The notes beneath the pieces were generated by a model. That model was given only the letters and a program-made list of their open reading frames with translations. It did not search any database and was not told where the DNA came from. From Calvatia gigantea (lineage: Eukaryota > Basidiomycota > Agaricomycetes > Agaricales > Lycoperdaceae), in contig JACAAK010000002.1 in assembly GCA_025093985.1 (NCBI GenBank), positions 2,232,001 to 2,296,000 on the forward strand: a stretch of DNA of 64,000 nucleotides, given 5' to 3'. Position numbers and translations under genes: made by a program. Shown piece by piece: positions 1,399-51,946 of the stretch (position 1 is its first letter; the number at the start of each line of letters is the position of its first letter).

Positions 1399-4300
1399 AT
1401 GGCTCAACCCGCCAACATGTCTGTCCCGAAAAACAATCTCGCTGACCTACTCAAACGCAAGGCAAATAATCCTCTTAATTCAGCTCAATCATACACGCCA
1501 TCTCCTCGATCCAACTTAGGGGTAAGGATGTATCCCAAATTACCTTTATTCCTGATGTCACCTTTCAGTTTCAGAAGCCCAGATTCAAGCCTGCAACATC
1601 TACACCATCGGGCAATAGCATACGTGAGTGTGGCAACGCTTTTGGGCAAAATGCCACTGAAGGGCACCTGTTAGCCAAGGTTACCAACACTCTCCCATTG
1701 CTTTCAACTCTGGACTTCAGGCCGACAAAGCCACCCGCAATTCAAACAAGCGTGTTGCAGAATTCGGGGAAAGCGGAGCTCATTGAAATCTCGGACCACT
1801 CCAATCCCACTACTCCAAACCCACTCAAGAGGTCCTCATCTGATTCAAATATCCTCCAAGATCCCTCTCCCAAGGCGTGCAAACGAGCGAAGAACACGAA
1901 CATCCTAAATTCAAACAAAGAAAATCTCTTGGCCATGGAACCAAGGCCTGGCTCAGCGGGTGGCTCCTCTCTAGCATCTCAATTTAGCAGAGTTATCGCC
2001 TCGCCTATTCCTGTTTTGCCAAACGGAGATCCTCCAAGCTTTGAGCGGATGGGAGCGCATTCGGATTTAGTAGATGTGAGTGACGTGCTACTCACAAAGT
2101 CGTCCCAATGACTCGCCTCCGTACAAGTTACCTTCACAGACTCTCGAGAGCTTCAGGAACAAACATCATGAGCTATTGACGCATGTCATGCAACTTCTTC
2201 TCGATGGCATGAGCTCAAAGGGGACGGTAGATACGAAGGTTCTCCAAAATTTCAAGTTCGTAAGACTCTCCCTTTACCCGATTCCAGCTGTTGATGAACT
2301 GATAGGAAGGAACTTGAAGAACGAATCGAAGCCATCAAACGGGTGGAGGCACAGAAACTAGGGGAGCAACAATGTGCTAGGATGTCACCCCCAACCCTTT
2401 CTTCGAACCATTCGTCCGGCTCCGAAACGGTGGTGAACCTGCCCAAAAACCTGTCTTCAAGGACGAGTGATCCTCCACTTGAACTGCCATCCCAAAATGT
2501 CGCACCATCTGTATCTTCTGCCATGACAGACACTCTCCCTATAATTGTCGATGTTGGTCAGACACTCGGATCCCAAAGTCATGCTCGGCCATCGGACGAC
2601 GACGACGAACTGTGGGATAGCTTTGGTCATATGCACCCGCACGTTTTAGATGCAATCACGAGAACGCCCGCTCGTCCTCCTCATCCTGACAACCTTCAGA
2701 GCCCTTATTATGATGAGCTTCGGCGTCTCTTGAAAGACATCTTCGGTCTCACAGACTTTAGAACTAATCAACTCGAAGCCATGACTGCCACTATGGCTGG
2801 GAGGGATGTCTTCGTCTTGATGCCTACTGGTGGGGGGAAAAGTCTGTGTTATCAGCTCCCTGCCGTCTGCACAGCCTGGACAAACAAGCGGAGTCACGAT
2901 CGTTATCTCTCCTCTTACCGCTTTAATGGAGGATCAAGTCAGTGCATTGACTTTGAAGGGCGTTGATGCTTTTTTCTGGAACGCAGACTCCCTCCAACAT
3001 GAAGTGAATGCTAAGTTATGGGGTGGGGAGAAGAAACCATCGCTGCTTTACATTACTCCAGAAAAGCTCAAGGCCAGTCCGGCATGCAGGAATCTGTTGA
3101 ACAAGCTCTATCGCGAGAAACAGCTTGCTCGGTTCGCCATAGATGAGGCACATTGCATTTCCACTTGGGGGCAGGATTTTCGCAATGCGGTAAATCGCTC
3201 CATTATCCAGATTGAGGTTATAATCTGATTTAAGTCAACTAGTATCAAGGGTTAGGCCAGCTTCGACAGGACTATCCCGACGTCCCTATCATTGCCCTGA
3301 CGGCGACGGCGAACCAACGCACACGGGAAGATATAGTTAACCAGCTACAGCTTCGAAATCATGCCCTATTCACTCAGTCCTTTAACCGACCTAACCTGAA
3401 ATACGTTATCAAGAGCAAGAAAAACATACTGGTTGACATTGTCGACTTCATCAACAGGGAACACCAGGACCATTCCGGAGTGATCTACTGCCTTGCTCGA
3501 AGATCTTGCGAACAAGTTGCAGAACAACTCAGAGAGAAAGGCGTTGCGGCCGAGTTCTTTCATGCGGGATTGAGTAAGGAGGAAAAGAACCGTCTTCTGG
3601 AAAATTGGAAAGCAGATAAGTTTCATATTATTGTCGCGACGGTGGGGAACGGTCCTTGCTATGTCTTCCTTAACTGATAAAGCTTTAGATCGCATTTGGA
3701 ATGGGCATCGATAAAGCAGATGGTAACCTTCTTGACAACCGCTAGGATATCTCTTTAATCTTTAAAATTATTTTCAGTGCGCTTTGTCATCCACTATGAC
3801 TTACCCAAATCATTATCTGGGTGGGTGGCATATTTGGCGACATATTCCTTGAGCCAATATTTCTATAGTTATTACCAAGAAACGGGAAGGGCAGGCCGTG
3901 ATGGGAAACCAGCAGACTGTGTTTTATGTGCGTATTTTGTGCTAACCCAGGGAGATGCCGAATTGGGAACCCCTTCCGTCATCTAGACTACAGCTTCAAG
4001 GACTTTAAGACAATTTGCCGAATGATTGAAAATAACAAGGACCGTGAAGAGCCGCTTACGCCCGAGGCCATCGAAAGGCAAAAAGACGCCGCACGCGAAG
4101 TCGTGAAATACTGTGCCAACATTTCTGAATGCCGGAGGGTCCAAATCCTTCGTCACTTTGGACAAGATTTCCACGAACGCGATTGCCAGCGTGGTTGTGA
4201 CAACTGTTTGGATGATCGGCAGTCAGTCCTCGAGGACGTGACGGCTGTGGTCAACGGCGCCGTTGACATCGTCCAAACTGCTTCGGATTTAGGAGACAAA

Positions 4301-5268
4301 ATCACGCTACCCCAGCTCACCAGCGTACTTCGGGGCTCAAATATATCAGATATCCGGAAACGCGGATTTGGTGATTTTGCAGGATTCGGCGCTTGTAAAA
4401 GCCTGTCCAAGGAACTAGTAGAGCTGGCTCTGGACAAACTCCTGTTATCCGACATTCTCATAAGTAGTATGCACAAGCAGAAGTCGGGCTATCTTGTTGA
4501 TTATATTGAGGTTCGTTCTTGAATTCGATAACAATCAACATGCTAACATTATCTAGGTCGGCCCTGCTGCAATGACTTTCAGGGCGAAGGGGGAACCCTT
4601 GCATATTATCTGGAGGCCACCACCAGCCAAGAAAACAAATAAACCGATTGAAAAGAACCAAAACCGTTACACGAAAGGCAAACAGCGTACTCGGGACTTA
4701 AACAGCGACCCAATTGAGCCGTTCCCAGATGAAGGTCGTTTGTTCGATGAAGTTGGTTCGTCCATCCAATTGCCACGAAGCTCGACAAGTAAGGAATCCT
4801 TCCCAAACTCGATGTTGGAGTTATATGCCAAGTTAGATGCATTCCGCTGTCAGGTAGGATAATGAACCTCCCTGCTTTTCACTAAAACTGACATTGCCTC
4901 AAGATAATGAACAGGGAGGGGCTGGTGAACAAAACTGCATTCATGAGTGAGGCACTGCTTCAATCATTATGCTTTGCTTGTCCACGAGGTGAGTTTGGTT
5001 TCAGATAGTGTTTTCCATTTCCTCATTAGCAATGTGAGATTATCTTGAATTCAATCAAATTGTGGGTGAGGTGGCCCATGACTCTCCAGCAACTTTTGAG
5101 AAATACTACAGTGAACTACTGCAGATATGCATACAGCATCATTTAGGGTGTGTAATTTATTTCTCACTTATTCTATTTTTGAACATATTTGTCAGATCCA
5201 TAACAAAGACACCCCAACTTAGTATTAGTGAGATGCACCAGCAGTTCTCATATCATGTAGCATCTTAG
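1399..5268 (+). CDS. SGS1: RecQ-family DNA helicase (BLM/Sgs1/Rqh1 type), one apparent frameshift
   Basis: ATP-dependent 3'-5' helicase of homologous recombination and stalled-fork repair. Exons: 1399-1521, 1569(or 1575)-2075, 2128-2259, 2310-3189, 3243-3641, 3689-3722, 3778-3820, 3869-3927, 3987-4510, 4557-4853, 4904-4988, 5039-5147, 5196-5268; introns are 46-59 bp and phases agree. The product is about 1087 aa. A roughly 380-residue polar N-terminal extension is followed by the Q-motif (FRTNQ), Walker A (MPTGGGKS, about residue 425), DEAHCIS (about 532), [29 protein letters not shown], a four-Cys zinc module ([16 protein letters not shown]) and a C-terminal HRDC-like segment ending near LLQICIQHH. 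Exon 4 holds one base too many: frame is lost between LCYQLPAVC and [13 protein letters not shown] (about 2870-2880), and no intron can repair it. This is a sequencing error, a real lesion or a null allele. The three-residue-range choice for the exon 2 start and the last two exons are less certain than the helicase core. Confidence 0.85.
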
Positions 5269-36314: not shown

Positions 36315-36936
36315 TGTCACAACCCGTACACGCGCTCACCCACTTCACCCGCTCTTACCCGGACTATACTTTATATTTTATTTATCATTCGCTCTCACCC
36401 GCTCTCCCCCGTCTCCCCCGCTCTCCATTCTTACTATTATGTCTGACGTTAATTTCCAATTATCCTCCTTGTACATTTCTCCGGTTGTCATACCTACTCC
36501 CGTTTCCCTTGCAATCCCTTTTACCGTTCATATCGTTCCTGTTTCACCTTATTCCTTTTAGCTAGCTGCATTCCCGGTGTTTTTATCTAGTGGCCATACC
36601 TGGCCCGCACCTGAAGTCGTAGTAGTTTCCTTTTGTAGAACCACACTTCCTCGCGTATATAAACTGTAGCTACTTCGCCTGTAATCCTCAGTCTGAAATC
36701 TACTTAGCGACACGCTACTTCTATCTTACCTCTGTCTCTGTCTCTGTCTCCGCCTCTGACTCTGCCCTCGTCCCTTATTCTGAAGTTAGGACTACCCGTC
36801 GGCAGGAGGGTGCAACACATACGTTGAAGCCACGGTCCTCCCAAGTTCGCCCGCTTTGTCCACCTTCGTCCGCATCCACGCATCATTCCGGGCGTCTAGA
36901 CTCCGGTCGTCTCACCTGTGTGACCTGCGCTTAACA
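36315..36936 (+). repeat. G1 5' LTR
   Basis: TGTCACAACCCG..CGCTTAACA. TATATAAA at 36656-36663 lies 34 nt before AGTCTGAAAT (36690-36699), which is complementary to the primer site. Confidence 0.92.
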
Positions 36937-36986: not shown

Positions 36987-38564
36987 ATGGCTACATTTGT
37001 TAGAACTAAGACTGGCGCAACCATTTGTCGGTCCCTTCGCAACAATCCCAAATGAACCCCTTCATCAACCCAATCCACCCCCAGAACTCAGAGATCGAAA
37101 CGGTCCCACCTATCCGTTCCAGGCGACTTCCCGCAAAACTCCCCTAACCCCTTCGCAGAGCTGATCTGGGAGGAACTTCCCAAACATAGCTCCGGCCCAC
37201 ATCGGGGCCTGAATAGTGGAAACAGCGTAGGCGGCACAGTTCCACCTGGAGATCCTGGCTACCCTGGTGGTGGTGACTATGGTATTAATGATGAAGACAA
37301 CTATGGCGATGACCAGAACGATGGTCTAGAATATGCCGATTACCCTTACCCCAATCCTGATGATGGTGGAGGCGATGGGCCTGGAGGCGATGACGAACCC
37401 GAGGAACCATCGGACGATGATGACGATGGTGATAATGAAACAAGCACTAGTGAGCCGCACGGCCGTCGGGGACTTGATCGCCCTCTGGCCCGCACTATTA
37501 GATCCCTCGCTAACGCCATAGACGATCGTGCCCGCTCTCAGCCGCCCCAGCCTCCTCGACCTCCCCGTACTAAGGCCCGCGAACCCGAACCATTCAGCGG
37601 TGCCAACCCCGATGACCTTCCTCGCTTCCTTTTCCAATGTCGACTCTACTTCCGCGCCAACCCTACACAATTCACATCTGATACCACCAAGGTCAACTTT
37701 GCCCTCACCTTCCTCACTGACGTCGCTCTTCGCTGGTTTGAAACTGGCATCAACCAGGAAGAGACTCAAGGCATATCCCATGCCTGGTCCACCGACTGGG
37801 ATGAGTTCACCACTGAGCTCAAGACCAACTTCGGTGTAGCCAACCTGAAGGGCGAATTGGCCGAACTCCTGGAGAATCTGAAGATGAAGCACGGTGAGAA
37901 GATCACCACCTATAACGTCGAATTCATGCGGCTCTCATCCCGACTTCGATGGGGCGATGACGTCCTCTGCTACCGCTACTACAAAGGCCTCCCTGATCGT
38001 CTCCAAGACGCCCTCTCTTCTCGCCCCAATGGCAAGCCCACCTCGTTCAACGAAATGCGTGAAGCAGCCATCATCCTCGATAATCGCTATTGGGAACGTC
38101 AACGCGAGAAGACCCGTGCGAAGGAAGCGGCCGAATCGGCATCCGCTTCTCTCAACAGGAAGTCGGGTAACAACCCTGGACCTTCCTCGAACAAGGCCAG
38201 CAGCAACAACAACAACAGCAACAACAGCAACAGCAACAACAACAACAGCAACAGCAACAAGCCCAACCACAGCAGCAGCAAGGGCAACACCTCGAACAAA
38301 CCCACCAACACTACCCCATCCTCCTCCACACCCGCCAAATCGTCCTCCCCCGCTAAACCCGACTTATCCGACAAACTCGGCAAGGACGGCAAGCTGACTA
38401 CCGAAGAACGCAAGCGCCGCCTCGACAACAACCTCTGCCTGTTCTGTGGCAACGCCGGCCACAAGGTTAGCGAGTGTAGGAAGAAAGCCGCTTCGACTGC
38501 AAAGGCTGTCGCCCGCAAGGCCGAAGTGGTTGGGGAGAGCTCTGAAAAGAGCTCGGAAAAATGA
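36987..38564 (+). CDS. G1 Gag, one TGA stop
   Basis: 525 codons from MATFVRTKTGA to SEKSSEK. A TGA interrupts it at 37053-37055, where copy 2 has CAA; both can derive from CGA. Order: basic N-terminus, Gly/Asp-rich acidic linker (residues 75-150), capsid domain with PDDLPRFLFQCRLYF, FALTFLTDVALRWFE, ..FGVANLKGELAELLENLKMKHGEKITTYNVEFMRL, a pure Asn/Ser tract encoded by AAC/AGC repeats (about 38206-38263), and one zinc knuckle CLFCGNAGHKVSEC. This is the DUF4939/retrotransposon Gag type of fungal chromoviruses. The stop codon overlaps the Pol start as ATGA, which suggests reinitiation. Cytoplasmic particle protein. Confidence 0.85.
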
Positions 38565-41500
38565 GTGGCGGTCCTCAGGACTCTGCACAGGCTGAGGACC
38601 GCGTTGAACTCACCTGTGCCACAGAGTGTTTTCGACTCAACGCTTCCGCTCTTTCTAACCCCAATTCCCTGCAGCTCTATCTCACTTCCCCTTCTGTTTC
38701 TTCATCCGCTTCATCCGATCTCGTCCGCTTCAAGGCTCTTGTTGATAGTGGGTCTACCCATTGCTTCGTGGACTCTGACTTTGTACATTCGTATGATCTC
38801 CCGACCACGCCCATTCCTCCTATTGAACTTCGTCTCTTTGATGGCTCGTCTAATGCGTACATTACTGAACTAGTGAAGCTTCCTGTTACCTTTGACTGTG
38901 GTGAATCTATGACTCTGGACTTTTACATCACCCGGCTTGACTCTTCTTGCTCTGTGGTTCTTGGATATAACTGGCTCAACCGCTACAATCCGTCGATTGA
39001 CTGGGTTCTGGGCCATATCACTTTCCAACCGCTTCAGCCTGAACTTCCTGCCACTTCTGCTCGCAGTGTGTCCATTCCAGTCGCACCTGCATCCTCTGCG
39101 GCGTCTGCTTCAGCCGCCCCATCTGTCACCTCACAGTCTTCACCATCTGCTTCTTCTGCCACTTCTGTTACAGGCACGGTTGACGCGGCTCGTCCGCACG
39201 TCTCACTGGTTAACGCCACCGCCTTCCTGCGTGCCTCTCGCCTCCCTAGTTCAGTTCAGTATAGCCTCAATCTCAACGACCCATCTATAACAGCTTCCTC
39301 CGCCTCTGTTGAGGAGCCTCAGGACGACTGGTCCTATATTCCGGAAGAGTACCGCGATTTTGCTGACGTCTTCAGTAAAATGAAGGCTGACAAGCTTGCC
39401 CCGCATCGGCCGTACGACCTTCAGATCAATCTCGAAGAAAGTGGCCAACCACCAGTTGGTACCATCTATTCCCTATCTCAGGTTGAACTAGAGGCTCTAC
39501 GCGAATTCATTGACGAAAACCTTGCTATCGGATTCATCCGCCCCTCCAACTCCCCTCACGGAGCCCCTGTCCTCTTTGTCAAGAAAAAGGATGGTTCGCT
39601 CCGTTTATGTGTCGATTTCCGAGGTCTCAACCGCATTACCAAGAAGGATCGCTACCCCCTTCCTCTCATATCCAACCTACTCGATTCGCCCCGCAAAGCC
39701 TGCATCTATACCAAGATTGACCTATGCCACGCTTATCACCTCGTCCGCATTGCAGAAGGTGACGAATGGAAAACGGCCTTCCGAACCCGCTACGGATCAT
39801 TCGAGTGGCTCGTTATGCCTTTCGGCCTTACCAATGCACCTGCCACCTTCCAGTGGTTCATGAACGACATCTTCAAAGATCTCTTAGATGTCTGCGTTAC
39901 GGTCTATCTTGACGACATACTCATCTATTCCGACGACATCAGCGTACACCGCAAGCAAGTCCACGAGGTTCTCAAGCGGCTTAGGCAGAACGGTCTCTAC
40001 GCCCGCGCGGATAAGTGTGAATTCGAGTCTGACACGGTTGAATATCTTGGTTACGTTCTTTCCCCTGATGGTCTCAAGATGTCTGAGGACAAGGTCAAGA
40101 TTATCCAAGACTGGCCAGAACCGAAGAAGATCAAGGACATACAGTCCTTCTTAGGTTTTGCCAATTTCTATCGTCGCTTCATTTATAACTACTCTGACAT
40201 TGTAGTTCCTCTCACCCGCCTTACCCGCAAGGGTATTCCTTGGAACTTCAATGATAAATGTCAAGAGGCTTTCCAATCATTGAAGGATGCTTTCACCTCT
40301 GCTCCTATCCTGACCCACTGGATCCCTGATGCTCAAATCATCGTCGAGACAGACGCATCTGACTACGCGCTAGCCGCCATCCTCTCTATCGTCACTGAGG
40401 ATGGTGAAGTTCACCCCATGGCTTTCCATTCCCGCACATTCACTTCGGCCGAGTCGAACTACGACACACATGACAAGGAACTACTGGCTATCTTTGAAGC
40501 CTTTAGGATCTGGCAGCATTATCTTGAAGGTGCTCCCCTTCCCATTGACGTGGTCACTGATCATAAGAATCTGGAATACTTCTGCACCACTAAAATCCTC
40601 ACCCGCCGTCAAGCTCGCTGGTCCGAATTCTTGTCACAGTTCAATCTCACCATCCGCTTTCGCCCCGGCCGACTTGGTACGAAGCCCGACGCTTTAACTA
40701 GACGATGGGACGTCTACCCTAAAGGGGGGAATAATGGCTACGCTACGGTCAATCCTCACAACTTCCGTCCAGTCTTTACTCATGAACAACTCGCAGCCTC
40801 CGTCCGCGCTACTTATCTTTATACCCCTTCCCTTCGCGCAGCCACGATCATTGACCTTGATCAGCTGCATTCCGACATCCTTTCATCTCTTCCGCAAGAC
40901 CCGACTGCGGCTCAACACCTAGCCAAACCCGAAGGACGCTGGATTGTAGATTCATCCGGTTTTCTCCGCCTTGACGACAGGATCTACGTTCCCAATGTTG
41001 ACAATCTTCGACTTCGTGTTCTACAGTACAAGCACGATCACATCCTTTCTGGACACTTCGGTCAGAACAAGACTCTGGAGTTAGTCCGATGTGATTACAC
41101 TTGGCCCAAAATCTGCACGACAGTCAAAGATTTCTGCAAATCCTGCGTCACCTGCATGCGCTCTAAGCCACAATGACACCGACCTTATGGAAACCTCAAG
41201 CAGCTCCCCATTCCTGAACGGCCATGGAACTCTATCTCTATGGACTTCATTGAGAAACTTCCCACATCTTCTGGCTACGACACTATCCTTGTTATCGTTG
41301 ATCGCCTTACCAAGCAATCTTTGTTCATTCCCACTCATGACACCATCACCTCGGCCGAACTCGCCCGCCTATTCGTCATTCATGTATTCTCGAAACATGG
41401 CGTTCCCGAACATGTTACGTCCAATCGCGGCTCCGAATTCGTTTCGCACTTCTTCCACTCGCTTGGACAAGCACTGGACATGAAGTTACACTTCACCTCC

Positions 41501-42319
41501 GGGTATCACCCTGAGGGTGACGGACAAACCGAACAGACTAACCAGACTCTCGAGCAATACCTCCGCGTCTACTGCAACTACCAGCAGGACAACTGGGCTG
41601 AGTTACTGCCACTAGCTGAGTTTGCCTATAACAATGCTCCTAGTGCCACTACTGGTGTCTCCCCATTCTTCGCTAATAAAGGCTATCATCCCAACATCAC
41701 AGTCTACCCGGAACGCGACTTGGTGTCCGCACGCGCACATCAATTCGTCGTCGACCTCGATGAACTCCACACAGTACTCAAATCCGAGATCAAGCAAGCT
41801 CAAGAACGGTACCAGTCATCCGCTGATACCCGCTGGACACCCGCACCTAACTTCACAGTTGGGCAAAAGGTCTTCGTTAAGGCGCAGTTCTTCCGCATGA
41901 CTCGACCGTCGAAGAAACTCTCGGAAAAGTATTTGGGTCCTTATGAGATTATTGCTCAACCCGGTTCCGTTTCTTATACTCTACGCTTACCTGACTCAAT
42001 GCATGCCGTTCACCCAGTATTCCACGTTTTGATGCTTGAACCTGCCACACCTAACCCATTTGACGGCCGCTCTGACCCGCCTCCTCCGCCCGTTGAAGTC
42101 GAAGGCGAGCCGGAGTACGAAATTGCCCACATTGTTGACTCGAAGATCGACCGTCGACGTGCCTGCAAGTTATTATACAAGGTCATTTGGTTGGGTTATG
42201 AGGATACTGAAGAAGAGTCTTCTTGGCTGCCTGCTACTGAATTAGAGCATGCAGCTGAACTTGTGGCAGATTTCCATACAGCTTATCCTGCTAAGCCTGG
42301 TCCCTTGCGTTCTTTGTAA
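38561..42319 (+). CDS. G1 Pol: protease, RT, RNase H, integrase, chromodomain; one TGA stop
   Basis: 1252 codons in one frame. Protease: FKALVDSGSTHCFVDS (DSG) and VVLGYNWLNRYNPSIDW. RT: PHGAPVLFVKKKDGSLRLCVDFRGLN.. and VYLDDILIYSDD (YLDD active site). RNase H: ETDASDYALAA, THDKELLAIFEAF, DVVTDHKNLEYF. Integrase: HILSGHFGQNKTLELV..CKSCVTCMRSKPQ (HHCC), a TGA at 41174-41176 where CGA (Arg) is expected, MDFIEKLP (first Asp), TSNRGSEFVSHF (second Asp is Asn, codon AAT 41423-41425), GQTEQTNQTLEQYL (Glu). The chromodomain near the C-terminus reads PEYEIAHIVDSKIDRR, LYKVIWLGYEDTEEESSWLPA. The lost integrase Asp and the stop predict an inactive enzyme. Confidence 0.9.
40721..40730 (+). promoter_or_regulatory. 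Possible central polypurine tract in G1 pol
   Basis: AAAGGGGGGA in the context CCTAAAGGGGGGAATAATGG closely repeats the 3' tract (CCTAAGGGGGGAATACTG). It lies at the RNase H-integrase junction, where lentiviral central tracts sit, and is unchanged in copy 2 (61937-61946). It also encodes PKGGN, so protein constraint is an alternative. Confidence 0.4.
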
Positions 42320-42446
42320 CACTTAATGGACTTATTTTCACTCTTATTCATGGACAGACCTTTTTTTATTATTATTATTGGACATGCAACTTTATTAAAC
42401 ATCAAAATCACGAGGAGCGAGGAAAGCCGCGTTCACCCGCACACCC

Positions 42447-43609
42447 TCAATCCTCATGCTGGCCCCCTTCCACACCCTCTTCCGCACCGTCTTCTTTTTC
42501 TCCGCTCTCCTCCGCACTTTCTTCACTTCCTTCCTCTCCACTACTACCGTTTCCCTTCTCTTCCTCATCCAAGTCCATCTGCTCACCCCCTTGTCGCACC
42601 GGTCGCGACGGCCCCTCACCCCGGTCCTCGATGTCGATGTCACCCGCCTCATCCACATGCCGTCGGATATCCGCACCAGGCAGCCATTCTGCAATCTGTC
42701 CTGGACGTTCAGTCCTTCCTGTGTGCTGAGGATCCTGTTGACTCACCACCAGGCCGAGGGCGCGGAACTCCTCTCCATTTGCAATGGTCTCCCTCAAGAT
42801 CGCGGCCGAATTGCGGGTATCGTGTTCTCGGTATCGGGACTCGTGTGCCATCCACGCGTTCTGCTGGCGCAATAAAACGATGATTTCGTTGAGGCATAGG
42901 GTGTTCTCTTCAAGTGCGGTCGCGAATCGGTCGAGATGTCGCGCGAGGACGTGGGGATTCGAGACCTTGGCACTTCCACCCGGCGGCTCACACTTTCGCT
43001 TGCCCTTGACGCAAGTCGCGCATTTGGTGGTAACCCGGCTAAGGACTTCTCAGCTTAATATTCAACAGGAAGAGGCCGCACTTACTTGGAGCGGGTCTGT
43101 CCGGGTTGACACCTGATACCCATGTCGATGCAGCGCTTGCAGGGGTTGTCCCCACCCATGGGAACGCGCACCTGCAGCTGAACCTCCTCCTCTTCCTCCT
43201 CGTCCAACGACCCCGGCGCATCGTTCTCTTCGTCCGAATCCTCCACCCTCGGCCGTTTCCTCAATCGGCTGGGACCCGCTACCGGTTCCTCCCGGGCCTT
43301 CCCCTTCCTACGTCGTCGTTCCTCCGCGTTCTCCTCCTCTTGCTCCTCCCTTTTCTTACGTGCCGCCTCCTCAAGCCGCTTCTTCCGCTTGTCACGTTTC
43401 TTCGCCTCCTCTCGTTTCCTCTCCTCATCGCGCCTCTTCCTCTCCTCCTCTTCGCGCTTCTCCCTATCCGCTCTTTCTTTGGCTTCAGCGGCAGCGAGGT
43501 CCACAATCAACCTGTGCTCGTCCTCTTCCTCCTGCTCGCGCTGAAGTCTGGCGCGTTCACGTTTCTCCTCGAGTTCGGCTTGTAGTTGGGCAGCGGTCTT
43601 GGGAGGCAT
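42447..43609 (-). CDS. Antisense two-exon gene of G1: Zn2Cys6-like protein with acidic tail
   Basis: Exons 43609-43086 and 43038-42447 with a 47 bp GTAAGT..TTAG intron; phases fit and 371 codons are open. Residues 1-130 (MPPKTAAQLQAELEEKRERA..) are a very charged Arg/Glu/Lys helix, likely coiled coil. There follows an acidic patch and two C-x2-C-x6-C groups across the splice site, CKRCIDMGIRC and CATCVKGKRKC, 13 residues apart: the pattern of a fungal Zn(II)2Cys6 binuclear cluster. Then ALEENTLCLNEIIVLLRQQNAW, a helical part, and an acidic Glu/Ser/Gly-rich C-terminus. This suggests a nuclear DNA-binding regulator with an activation-like tail. It converges with pol (127 bp gap) and would be driven from 43610-43745. 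It is the only ORF of G1 copy 1 without a lesion. Function is inferred from pattern only. Confidence 0.7.
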
Positions 43610-43732
43610 AGTGGTAGTAGGAGGTCAAGAGGCAAGCAAAGGAAAATTTTCAAAAGTGTGGATCTTATACCCGCATCAAATTTTTCAACTCCGTTTCCCA
43701 CGACACCTTCATGGCCTCGAGGGCTCGGCCCT

Positions 43733-43742
43733 AAGGGGGGAA
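43733..43742 (+). promoter_or_regulatory. G1 3' polypurine tract
   Basis: AAGGGGGGAA three bases before the 3' LTR start (43746), the expected plus-strand primer. Confidence 0.85.
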
Positions 43743-43745
43743 TAC

Positions 43746-44367
43746 TGTCACAACCCGTACACGTGCTCACCCACTTCACCCGCTCTTACCCGGACTATAC
43801 TTTATATTTTATTTATCATTCGCTCTCACCCGCTCTCCCCCGTCTCCCCCGCTCTCCATTCTTACTATTATGTCTGACGTTAATTTCCAATTATCCTCCT
43901 TGTACATTTCTCCGGTCGTCATACCTACTCCCATTTCCCTTGCAATCCCTTTTACCGTTCATATCGTTTCTGTTTCACCTTATTCCTTTTAGCTAGCTGC
44001 ATTCCCGGTGTTTTTATCTAGCGGCCATACCTGGCCCGCACCTGAAGTCGTAGTAGTTTCCTTTTGTAGAACCACACTTCCTCGCGTATATAAACCGTAG
44101 CTACTTCGCCTGTAATCCTCAGTCTGAAATCTACTTAGCGACACGCTACTTCTATCTTACCTCTGTCTCTGTCTCTGTTTCCGCCTCTGACTCTGCCCTC
44201 GTCCCTTATTCTGAAGTTAGGACCACCCGTCGGCAGGAGGGCGCAACACATACGTTGAAGCCACGGTCCTCCCAAGTTTGCCCGCTTCGTCCACCTTCGT
44301 CCGCATCCACGCATCATTCCGGGCGTCTAGACTCCGGTCGTCTCACCTGCGTGACCTGCGCTTAACA
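43746..44367 (+). repeat. G1 3' LTR
   Basis: 622 bp, the partner of 36315-36936, followed by ATGGA. The two LTRs differ by roughly a dozen substitutions, many of them CpG transitions (for example ACACGCGC against ACACGTGC near the start). Confidence 0.92.
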
Positions 44368-44372
44368 ATGGA

Positions 44373-45068
44373 GGAACACAGGTGACACTGTTCTTCTTAA
44401 ACTATGGAAGAAACCCATGGAAAGGAAAAAATGGACTAACAACAAACAACCTGGTGGCCACAGACTTCCTAAAGGAACTTCAGACTGCCTGAGACAACGC
44501 CTCATCAGCACTATGTACATACCAAGAAAAGATGAAATAGCAATATGACTGCAACAAGACCCACACCAAAATGTACCAAATAGGTGATGTAGTGTGGCTG
44601 GAGAACACAAACATCCATACCAATCAAACATCAAAAAAGCTAGGCCAAAAACAGTATGGGCCTTTCCTCATCAAGGAAAAGATAGGAGAAGCGGCATATC
44701 AGCTAGCACTACCAGACGGATGGACCATCCATAATGTGTTCAATGAACAACTCCTGACACCAGTATGTCAGGCTGAATTCTCAAGTCAAAAACAGTCACT
44801 GGCACCTGCCCCAGTGATCATCAACAATGAAGAAGAGTACAAAGTAGAAGAAATCCACAGACAAAGGAAATGGGGAAGGAGATATCAATTCCTAGTCCAC
44901 TGGAAGGGATATAGCAATGAAGAAGATACATGGACAGCAGAGGCCAATTTGGAAAATGTAAGAGATGCCATACGAGACTACCTAAAAAGGCATCCAGAGG
45001 ATATCCATAAAAGAGGGGGCAGAAAACACAAAAAAGCATCAAACAGACAACCTGGACAAAAAAACTAA
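44373..45068 (+). pseudogene. G2 Pol C-terminus with chromodomain
   Basis: Continues the G2 integrase after the G1 insertion: GTQVTLFFLNYGRNPWKG, then KMYQIGDVVWLENTNI, LGQKQYGPFLIKEKIGEAAYQLALP (GPY/F module) and the chromodomain EEEYKVEEIHRQRKWGRRYQ, FLVHWKGYSNEEDTWTAEANL. The chromodomain keeps its aromatic cage and is uninterrupted from 44571 to the TAA at 45066-45068. There is an in-frame TGA near 44546 and a frame change around 44430-44580. Confidence 0.75.
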
Positions 45069-50341: not shown

Positions 50342-51946
50342 CAGTAAGGGACAAAACCCTTCCAATGATTTTGACTTTTTCATGAAATCCCAAATAACTC
50401 AGCAACCACTAAGCCAATTCATTTCAAATTTTAAATGAAGGTAGTCATGCTTCTTATCTACAAATATGTTTAAGCATTTAATATTATACTTTGTTTCTAT
50501 GGAGATATGAATTATTGAATATTATGAGTGCATTGAAAGGGTTTTGTCCCTCATCTTCTCCAGGCACATAACTCTGTTTACTGCTCTCAAACAAATTCAA
50601 ATAAAATCATATGATGAGAGTAGATTGTGTATAAAGATGAAAGCTTACTTCTCCAGGCCAAAGTAACCCAATAACTTATCTTCTGTTGACATGAAACCTC
50701 TCTCTTCTTCTCAGATTGATCATATCCTCTTTCTCCTTGACAAAGGACATACTGCTACCCAAATTGCTTCCACTACTGGTTATTCCCTCAGTACTATCTC
50801 TAGAGTTCACTCTAAACATAGGCCAACAATTTCCAAATCCACTGGTGGCTGTCCAAGCAAGCTTTCCCCCTCTGATACCAAATATGCCATTCGACTTCTC
50901 ACCTCTTGCAAGGCTGATAATGCCTCTCAGGTCACAAAGGCCCTCCAAAATGTTACCAACCAACCTGTTTCATCCAAAACAATTTGAAGGACACTCAAAA
51001 GGGCAGGGATGAAGGCTGTAGTGAAGAGAAAACAGCCTTTACTCACTAGGGTTCACAAGCAGAAGAGGCTGGTGTTTGCAAAAACATATGCAAACTGGAC
51101 TGTGGAGGACTGGAAGCAGGTAGTTTGGACAGATGAGACTAAAATCAATTGGATAGGGTCAGATGGAAGGCATTGGGTGTGGAAAACAGCAGGAGAGGGG
51201 CTTAGTGACAGGCTGGTGAATGGAACTGTCAAGTTTGGAGGAGGTTCTTGCATGATATGGGGGTGCATGCTATGGCAGGGGCCTGGCCATATACACCACA
51301 TTGAAGGTACCATGGATGGTGACCTTTATGTTCACATTTTGGATGACAAACTTTACCAAAGTCTCAAGAAATACAGGAAGAAGAAGTGGCAAGTCCTTTT
51401 CCAACAGGACAATGACCCCAAACACACAAGCAAAAAAGCAAAAATGTGGCTTGAAAACAGTGGTTTAAAGGTTATGGAGTGGCCACCACAGTCCCCAGAC
51501 CTTAATCCCATTGAACAGCTCTGGACTTATGTCAAAAACAGGCTAGAAGAGTATGAAAACTACCCTTCCAGCATAACTGAACTCAGAGAAAGGGTGGATA
51601 TAGAATGGGGCAAAATTCCTGCATCAGTGTGTCAGAATTTGATAGAGAGTATGCCTAGGAGGGTTCAGGCTGTTTTACAGGCCAAAGGGGGCTATACAAA
51701 GTACTAGAGAACTGATTTTGTGTAGTTTCAGACAGAGGGACAAAACCCTTCCAATGGACTCATAATGTTGATTAATTCATATCACCACAGGAACTTAATA
51801 TTACATAATGCTGTTTATACCTATTTGTAGATAAGATACAAGACTACCTACATTTAAATTCTGAAGTGGATACCTTTACTGGTTGCTGAGTTATTTGAGA
51901 TTTCATGAAAAAGTCAAAATCATTGGAAGGGTTTTGTCCCTTACTG
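50342..51946 (+). mobile_element. Tc1/mariner transposon, TA duplication, long inverted repeats
   Basis: 1605 bp from CAGTAAGGGAC to GTCCCTTACTG, flanked by TA (50340-50341, 51947-51948). The outer 66 bp of the two ends match with one mismatch. Imperfect similarity extends to about 213 bp (50342-50555 and 51734-51946), each ending in an inner, oppositely oriented copy of the GGGACAAAACCCTT site. Excising it restores the G3a RT frame (VKNKY-PFLLISKL). Confidence 0.93.
50691..51707 (+). CDS. Tc1-family DD34E transposase, one TGA stop
   Basis: 338 codons, MKPLSSSQIDHI to AKGGYTKY. The N-terminal paired-like HTH region includes TQIASTTGYSLSTISRVHSKH and a GRPSKLS-type hook now GCPSKLS. Catalytic triad: D148 (VWTDETK), D240 (FQQDNDPKHTS) and E275 (PDLNPIEQLW), with 34 residues between the last two. 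The only lesion is TGA at 50985-50987 (KTI-stop-RTLKRAG), best explained as CGA to TGA; the R to C hook change is also a CpG transition. Enzyme role: nuclear cut-and-paste at TA. Confidence 0.88.

Follow-up and report, generated by a model that had tools for sequence, protein, structure and literature searches.

A predicted spliced antisense gene encoding paired cysteine groups is maintained in two Gypsy retrotransposon families of Calvatia gigantea

Within a 64,000-nucleotide stretch of Calvatia gigantea DNA (the window), the LTR retrotransposon G1 carries, on the strand opposite to gag and pol, a two-exon reading frame whose product contains two CX2CX6C groups. On the evidence of the sequences, we take this to be a real accessory gene of the element, of spliced type, that is present both in G1 and in a second Gypsy family, since selection acts on the spliced frame in two diverged families that have the same plan. 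What antisense accessory ORFs do in LTR retrotransposons has long been puzzling, and the reviews consulted assign them no tested function. The antisense gene of G1 has a clear evolutionary signature, i.e., selection in both exons and a conserved intron in two diverged families within one genome. Transformation and RNA-seq are practical in the group of organisms to which the host belongs; with such a signature, the role of antisense retrotransposon genes therefore becomes directly testable.

Results

G1 and its antisense gene

G1 is a chromodomain Ty3/Gypsy LTR element, as judged from its gag, the order PR-RT-RH-IN, the chromodomain, the LTRs and a target-site duplication, the last of these being a 5-bp direct repeat (ATGGA) on both flanks. 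The 5' and 3' LTRs are 98.1% identical, with 12 mismatches. The rve domain of pol scored just under its cut-off (31.6 vs 32.6 bits), and each of the remaining pol domains was recognized by at least one model over its cut-off. When G1 pol was compared with the protein database, its best relative among the 120 matches listed was from Leucocoprinus (85%), with Agaricus at 78%. The features of the element are as follows.

36315..36936, + strand: 5' LTR of G1, 622 bp
36987..38564, + strand: gag of G1, with Retrotrans_gag and Ty3_capsid; zinc knuckle below cut-off
38546..42319, + strand: pol of G1, with protease, RT, RNase H, integrase H2C2, rve, SH3_Tf2-1 and chromodomain
42391..42396, - strand: AATAAA, possible poly(A) signal (function inferred), 51 nt after the antisense stop codon
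43038-42447, - strand: exon 2 of the antisense gene, with the second CX2CX6C, a helical stretch (by reading), an acidic tail and TGA
43085-43039, - strand: intron of the antisense gene, 47 nt, GTAAGT...TTAG
43609-43086, - strand: exon 1 of the antisense gene, with the ATG at 43609, a charged coiled-coil-like stretch (by reading) and the first CX2CX6C
43664..43669, - strand: TATAAG, possible TATA box (function inferred), ending 55 nt before the antisense ATG
43746..44367, + strand: 3' LTR of G1, with a polypurine tract before it

An earlier, sequence-only reading of the window had placed a two-exon minus-strand gene between pol and the 3' LTR; its coordinates were exact, and the predicted product is 371 aa long. 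The same reading had called this gene the sole lesion-free ORF of the copy. We came to the same result, as gag and pol each contain one premature in-frame stop (near the start of gag, and at 41174-41176 in pol) and the antisense gene contains none. The charged N-terminal stretch of the protein holds 39 K/R and 36 D/E in 115 residues. It is followed by the CX2CX6C groups at residues 157-167 and 181-191, one per exon with 13 residues between them, and the acidic tail has 27 D/E in 72 residues. A distance of 136 bp separates the antisense ATG from the 3' LTR. In 30 full-length copies of the element (see below), the possible TATA box reads TATAAG in 19 and CATAAG in 11, and AATAAA is present in 23, comprising all 23 inner copies and none of the seven outer ones.

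When the 1163-bp stretch was shuffled 1000 times with its dinucleotides preserved, an opening of the size of exon 1 arose 14 times and one of the size of exon 2 six times (in any of three frames), with both arising together once. A spliceable pair of CX2CX6C groups occurs once in the window, i.e., in the antisense gene, vs none in 20 dinucleotide shuffles of the whole window.

Other open frames accompany G1 in the window. Adjoining its 3' LTR, an SH3_Tf2-1 place is listed at 44541-45068 (+), an open frame that we take to be the integrase/chromodomain end of another Gypsy element. A 239-aa open frame at 50988-51707 (+) is presumably a Tc1/mariner-type transposase. The open frames at 1479-4522 (+), which we assume to encode a RecQ-type DNA helicase, perhaps represent a host gene bordering a transposon-rich stretch.

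Copies in the genome and retention of the intron

A search of the genome (46 Mb, 77 contigs) returned at least 42 places matching the antisense gene. Thirty-nine G1-family loci were taken, 30 of which span the whole stretch; the nine incomplete loci were dropped before the counts were made. The donor GT, the acceptor AG and the stop codon are in place in 30/30 of the full-length copies and the ATG in 29/30, and the intron measures 47 nt in 29 copies and 48 nt in one. Each Cys codon of the two CX2CX6C groups is kept in 24-30 of the 30 copies, and the antisense frame is uninterrupted in only three. The gene sits in the interval from pol to the 3' LTR and runs opposite to gag-pol, which is the position that defines an antisense accessory ORF of the aORF-3R kind. 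It apparently occurs in the majority of the family's copies and is conserved to a degree similar to that of the element's other proteins. Its nucleotide divergence from G1 nevertheless exceeds that of pol, e.g., 16.7% vs 9.2% in the copy L033/L052. The sequence-only reading had also described the gene as recurring in a second copy of the element (L020). The gene is indeed there with its splice sites kept, but it contains three in-frame stops. By genome position it would run from 63655 to 64817, mostly past the edge of the window.

A sense genomic RNA is expected to be unable to splice an antisense intron, and the intron had accordingly been proposed to survive retrotransposition through its orientation. 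This proposal agrees well with the retention of the intron in every copy that can be judged, no loss being found in 34/34 G1-family or 13/13 second-family copies that span it. In the G1 family, the intron is spanned with its flanks in 34 of the 39 loci, each with at most one gap position; the other five loci have no span over the intron, and three of these are broken inside the intron stretch.

The pol end of one further locus, L057 (G000:C10:315900-318400), is 98% identical to G1 and stops at the antisense-gene end. An inverted G1 LTR (94.6%) lies about 30 bp beyond this pol end, and the antisense gene is missing. The loci L042 (G000:C12:318679-319311) and L046 (333457-333990) match query bases 1-633 and 630-1163, respectively, as though the antisense-gene intron of a single G1 copy had taken up an insert of about 14 kb; the two matches overlap by 4 bp.

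Selection on the antisense frame in the G1 family

To characterize the mutations, we used the stretch equivalent to 42300-43760 in the full-length copies among L009-L043. Among 1418 terminal changes, C>T and G>A accounted for 1124, of which 632 fell at CpG and 274 at CpA; per site, C>T decay was 2.8 at CpG, 1.7 at CpA and 0.35 at CpT. Such C>T decay at CpG and, less strongly, at CpA is a signature of methylation or a RIP-like process. Codon positions compared between internal and terminal branches of a parsimony tree gave no significant result (p=0.14 and 0.59), because the cytosine-decay mutations swamp the signal. This test was therefore replaced by spectrum-matched N:S tests with a singleton control. 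Here, omega relates the observed N:S to the ratio expected under the mutation spectrum of those same changes, and singletons of the 23 inner copies, being post-insertion mutations, serve as the neutral control. All p values assume that sites are independent, and they are single-test values.

Singletons of the antisense gene in the 23 inner copies were neutral, i.e., 69N:36S vs 67.8:35.3 expected (omega 1.00), and the pol singleton controls gave omega values of 0.79 for PR-RT-RH (p=0.067) and 0.97 for IN. Fixed differences between the 23 inner and five outer copies amounted to 10N:17S plus one stop (omega 0.30, p=0.0019), with an omega of 0.34 for the fixed differences in pol PR-RT-RH. For differences found in at least two of six outer copies, we obtained 55N:52S (omega 0.56, p=0.002), pol PR-RT-RH giving 0.61. 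With C>T changes at CpG/CpA left out, the same set yielded 16N:34S and an omega of 0.23 (p=3.8e-7), vs 0.17 for pol PR-RT-RH and 0.08 for IN; split by exon, omega was 0.12 in exon 1 and 0.31 in exon 2. Purifying selection on the antisense ORF across copies, which had been put forward as a check on the gene, was thereby detected, and it was also detected in the second family described below. The copy L043, which is 76% identical to G1, displayed 82N:89S (omega 0.46) and, without the CpG/CpA C>T changes, 52N:76S (omega 0.32, p=1.5e-10).

In the sets without CpG/CpA C>T changes, the other frames had omega values above 1, apart from the sense frame that has wobble columns in common with the antisense frame. 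A constrained sense frame (omega 0.26 and 0.40) was considered and rejected on account of these common columns and the presence of stops, the sense frame of three intact copies having three stops over exon 1 and two to three over exon 2.

Local tests were also performed. Counting differences in any of the seven outer copies, residues 177-241 showed 13N:16S (omega 0.40, p=0.012). Nearly all of this segment precedes the first Met of exon 2, which is residue 238, so that its translation needs splicing or an equivalent join. The same residues were not significant with shared sites only (3N:3S, p=0.26), nor was the zinc segment, residues 150-200, significant alone (12N:12S, p=0.12; shared sites only, 0N:4S, p=0.08). 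Fixed differences over residues 140-285 were 6N:2S plus a stop. Differences in at least four inner copies looked neutral (109N:58S, omega 0.99), and this we would attribute to parallel C>T hits.

Indels in the antisense CDS that are common to several copies are 21 nt (five copies) and 12 nt (six copies) long. Those that break the frame are confined to single copies, in which two further indels of 3 nt and one of 21 nt were also found. In the flanks, only one of the 13 indels present in at least two copies is a multiple of three, most of them lying in one simple repeat or at an alignment end. The antisense frame was thus kept by selection while the elements multiplied, with neutral decay after insertion.

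A second Gypsy family with the same plan

Of 937 candidate integrase-end places, the best 150 were scored and five (L057-L061) were examined. L058, L059 and L061 constitute a second Gypsy family that is 79-80% identical to G1 over the pol end, and L060, from another Gypsy family, has no such antisense gene in the 2.5 kb examined. The antisense DNA of the second family gave no alignment to that of G1. At the protein level, the G1 product matches the first Cys segment of L058, L059 and L061 at E values of 1.5e-4 to 0.002. The order of elements in the second-family product is an MSS..KKTA coiled coil, CX2CX6C, the intron, CX2CX6C, a helix-like stretch and an acidic tail. Its 47-nt intron (GTAAGT..TTCTAG) is in the same place as in G1, and the spacer between the Cys groups is exactly 13 residues in both. 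Comparison of the protein cores of G1 and the second family scored 43.5 bits vs a maximum of 21.9 in 200 shuffles; whole-protein BLASTP matched only 20 residues, at E=0.014. By these sequence comparisons, the two antisense proteins are related. From the common intron place and spacer, the gene was probably already present before the two families diverged.

The genome contains 47 pieces matching exon 2 of the second family. Thirteen copies were analyzed, namely L058, L059 and L061 together with ten chosen for diversity. All 13 have the GTAAGT donor, the AG acceptor and the 47-nt intron, 11 have the ATG, and only three are without an in-frame stop. Relative to L058, and with C>T changes at CpG/CpA left out, omega was 0.48 for differences in at least two copies (p=9e-6) and 0.43 for those in at least four (p=3e-6); with these changes included, the values were 0.69 and 0.54, respectively. 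Singletons gave omega values of 1.05 and 1.29.

The zinc-cluster label

The earlier description of the protein as Zn2Cys6-like holds for the CX2CX6C spacing of each half and fails at the level of the Pfam model, the protein scoring below the Zn_clus (PF00172) cut-off. Against this cut-off of 21 bits, the 371-aa protein scored 10.2, its 128-aa core 13.6 and a 49-aa piece of it 17.6, with the second-family core at 17.5. The first Cys group of the G1 protein aligns to the second half of the Zn_clus profile, and an order-swapped (permuted) cluster was also considered. The swapped peptide reached 21.2 bits vs 20.2 for a hand-scrambled control, the gain being mostly due to Cys spacing, and the single halves, with one Cys group each, had no Zn_clus match in Pfam; a permuted cluster gains no clear support from these scores. 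The antisense protein is formally not a Zn2Cys6 protein. Like the Gal4-type proteins (PF00172), it arranges its six cysteines in two CX2CX6C groups with a helical stretch after them. It differs from them in its below-cut-off score in native order and apparently also in its linker of 13 residues and in the mid-protein position of its Cys groups. The TRP28 domain (PF04195) had no match in the G1 or second-family proteins up to E=10.

Homologues and origin

In a database of 5.8 billion proteins, the Cys core retrieved 59 candidates, none at E<=0.01, and exon 2 retrieved 219, none at E<=10. A pol query of the same database returned 7979 proteins at E<=1e-30 among 7983 scored. The database includes mushroom proteins, but spliced transposon genes may be absent from it. 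Viral contigs contained no match, bacterial genome contigs provided a single weak match and a pol relative (39%, on a contig of 3.6 kb), and a PDB search produced nothing useful. Whole-genome protein searches with the Cys cores of both families found only copies of these two families, as far as the places of the matches show, and the genome has at least 19 PF00172 Zn_clus places over the cut-off, all of them elsewhere than the antisense-gene copies. On these grounds, together with the database results, no host donor of the antisense gene is visible.

Discussion

Possible function and alternative explanations

We see about an even chance that the antisense gene is an accessory gene of the two Gypsy families whose product regulates the element's own expression or integration. 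Its charged N-terminal stretch, paired Cys groups, helix-like stretch and acidic tail would fit a nuclear regulator. Under this reading, transcription would start from a promoter in the 3' LTR or in the 136-bp spacer, and the transcript would be spliced and would end near the 3' end of pol. The protein would dimerise through its coiled coils and enter the nucleus, where the paired CX2CX6C groups may bind nucleic acid and the acidic tail may contact host transcription or chromatin proteins. It could then regulate the expression or integration of the element by analogy with HBZ for HTLV-1, and as has been proposed for plant antisense ORFs. A more specific form of this proposal, which we offer tentatively, is that a mushroom chromodomain retrotransposon lineage makes a zinc-cluster-like regulator from a spliced antisense mRNA, with the half-sites on separate exons, for autoregulation of the LTR. 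If this is true, the complete domain would come only from spliced, nuclear-made mRNA while the genomic RNA keeps the intron for ever, and the element would in this way separate production of the regulator from production of its genome.

The same gene structure and the same evidence of selection would be expected of a real accessory protein that acts not as a transcription regulator but in the particle or pre-integration complex, as a nucleic-acid chaperone or in nuclear import or integration-site choice. A highly charged exon 1 and a pair of short Cys groups would fit a chaperone too, and chromatin targeting belongs to the life cycle of the element, which carries a chromodomain. However, the acidic tail and the CX2CX6C pair are nearer to a zinc cluster than to a CCHC knuckle, and a separate antisense transcript would suit regulation better than a stoichiometric role. 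We regard this alternative as unlikely, though a serious competitor. It is improbable that the antisense RNA itself is what is useful, through double-stranded RNA or transcriptional interference, and that the ORF is incidental. PMC7264820 discusses roles of this sort in plant and animal elements, but RNA alone predicts neither the synonymous excess in the spliced frame of both families nor the frame-keeping of the shared indels. An antisense-RNA role may nevertheless coexist with a role of the protein.

Two further explanations concern where the frame came from. With paired Cys groups in the protein and at least 19 places in the genome that exceed the Zn_clus cut-off, one might suspect a recently captured host Zn2Cys6 transcription factor gene that still does its host job. 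Against this, the genome searches with the Cys cores gave only element copies as far as their places show, the 19 PF00172 places lie elsewhere, the search of 5.8 billion proteins gave no homologue and the copies decay neutrally after insertion, all of which makes capture very improbable. On its antisense strand, exon 1 is repetitive and rich in purines, a composition that can favour long openings, and the sequence-only reading had itself listed a chance product of compositional bias as an outcome that would count against the gene. The shuffles, the frame-specific selection and the common structure in two families refute this, leaving a chance opening with negligible probability.

Comparison with known antisense genes

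The sequence-only reading had singled out the gene as a candidate for an undescribed system, which was an overstatement, since plant Gypsy elements and the fungal element Boty are known to carry antisense ORFs in the same interval, from pol to the 3' LTR. The available part of PMC7264820 reviews such ORFs in plants, includes Boty of Botrytis and calls for a search for antisense and spliced transcripts. It also describes maize Grande gene23 as having its own promoter and a peptide that localises in the nucleus. For Retand of Silene, antisense ORFs with TRP28 are reported in PMC11963269, in the available text of which the word "intron" is absent and "splic" occurs only in reference titles. The plant aORF-3R, as far as these sources describe them (Grande gene23, rice RIRE2 and Retand TRP28), are like the G1 gene in position, antisense orientation, presence in most copies and a presumed nuclear or DNA-related role. 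They differ from it in possessing TRP28 and SMC-like domains, whereas the G1 gene combines a conserved intron with paired CX2CX6C groups and belongs to a fungal chromodomain element.

Among fungal elements, brtn, the antisense gene of the Boty-like elements of Botrytis cinerea, was reportedly described by Zhao et al. 2011. It is also treated in PMC8365987, as judged from the part available. Boty with brtn is, like G1, a fungal LTR element with an additional antisense gene, an ORF that PMC7264820, in its available part, places between pol and the 3' LTR. Botrytis, unlike the host of G1, is an ascomycete, and the likeness is one of position and orientation. Among the best matches listed from the open-licence literature, none described a fungal retrotransposon with a spliced antisense gene for a Cys-rich protein.

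The hbz gene of HTLV-1 is expressed as a spliced antisense transcript from the 3' LTR and encodes a nuclear bZIP regulator, according to the available part of PMC10186651. It is, like the G1 gene, an antisense gene of a retroelement, splicing of the latter being predicted. In contrast to G1, HTLV-1 is a retrovirus and its protein has a bZIP instead of Cys groups; we claim no sequence relation between the two. As far as that source describes it, splicing in hbz changes the N terminus, whereas in the G1 gene it would join the two Cys groups. What sets the G1 gene apart from the known antisense ORFs is that its intron is conserved, its Cys groups are paired and its frame bears evidence of selection, and the kinds known from plants and ascomycetes are widened to a spliced-type, Cys-rich protein in an agaric chromodomain element.
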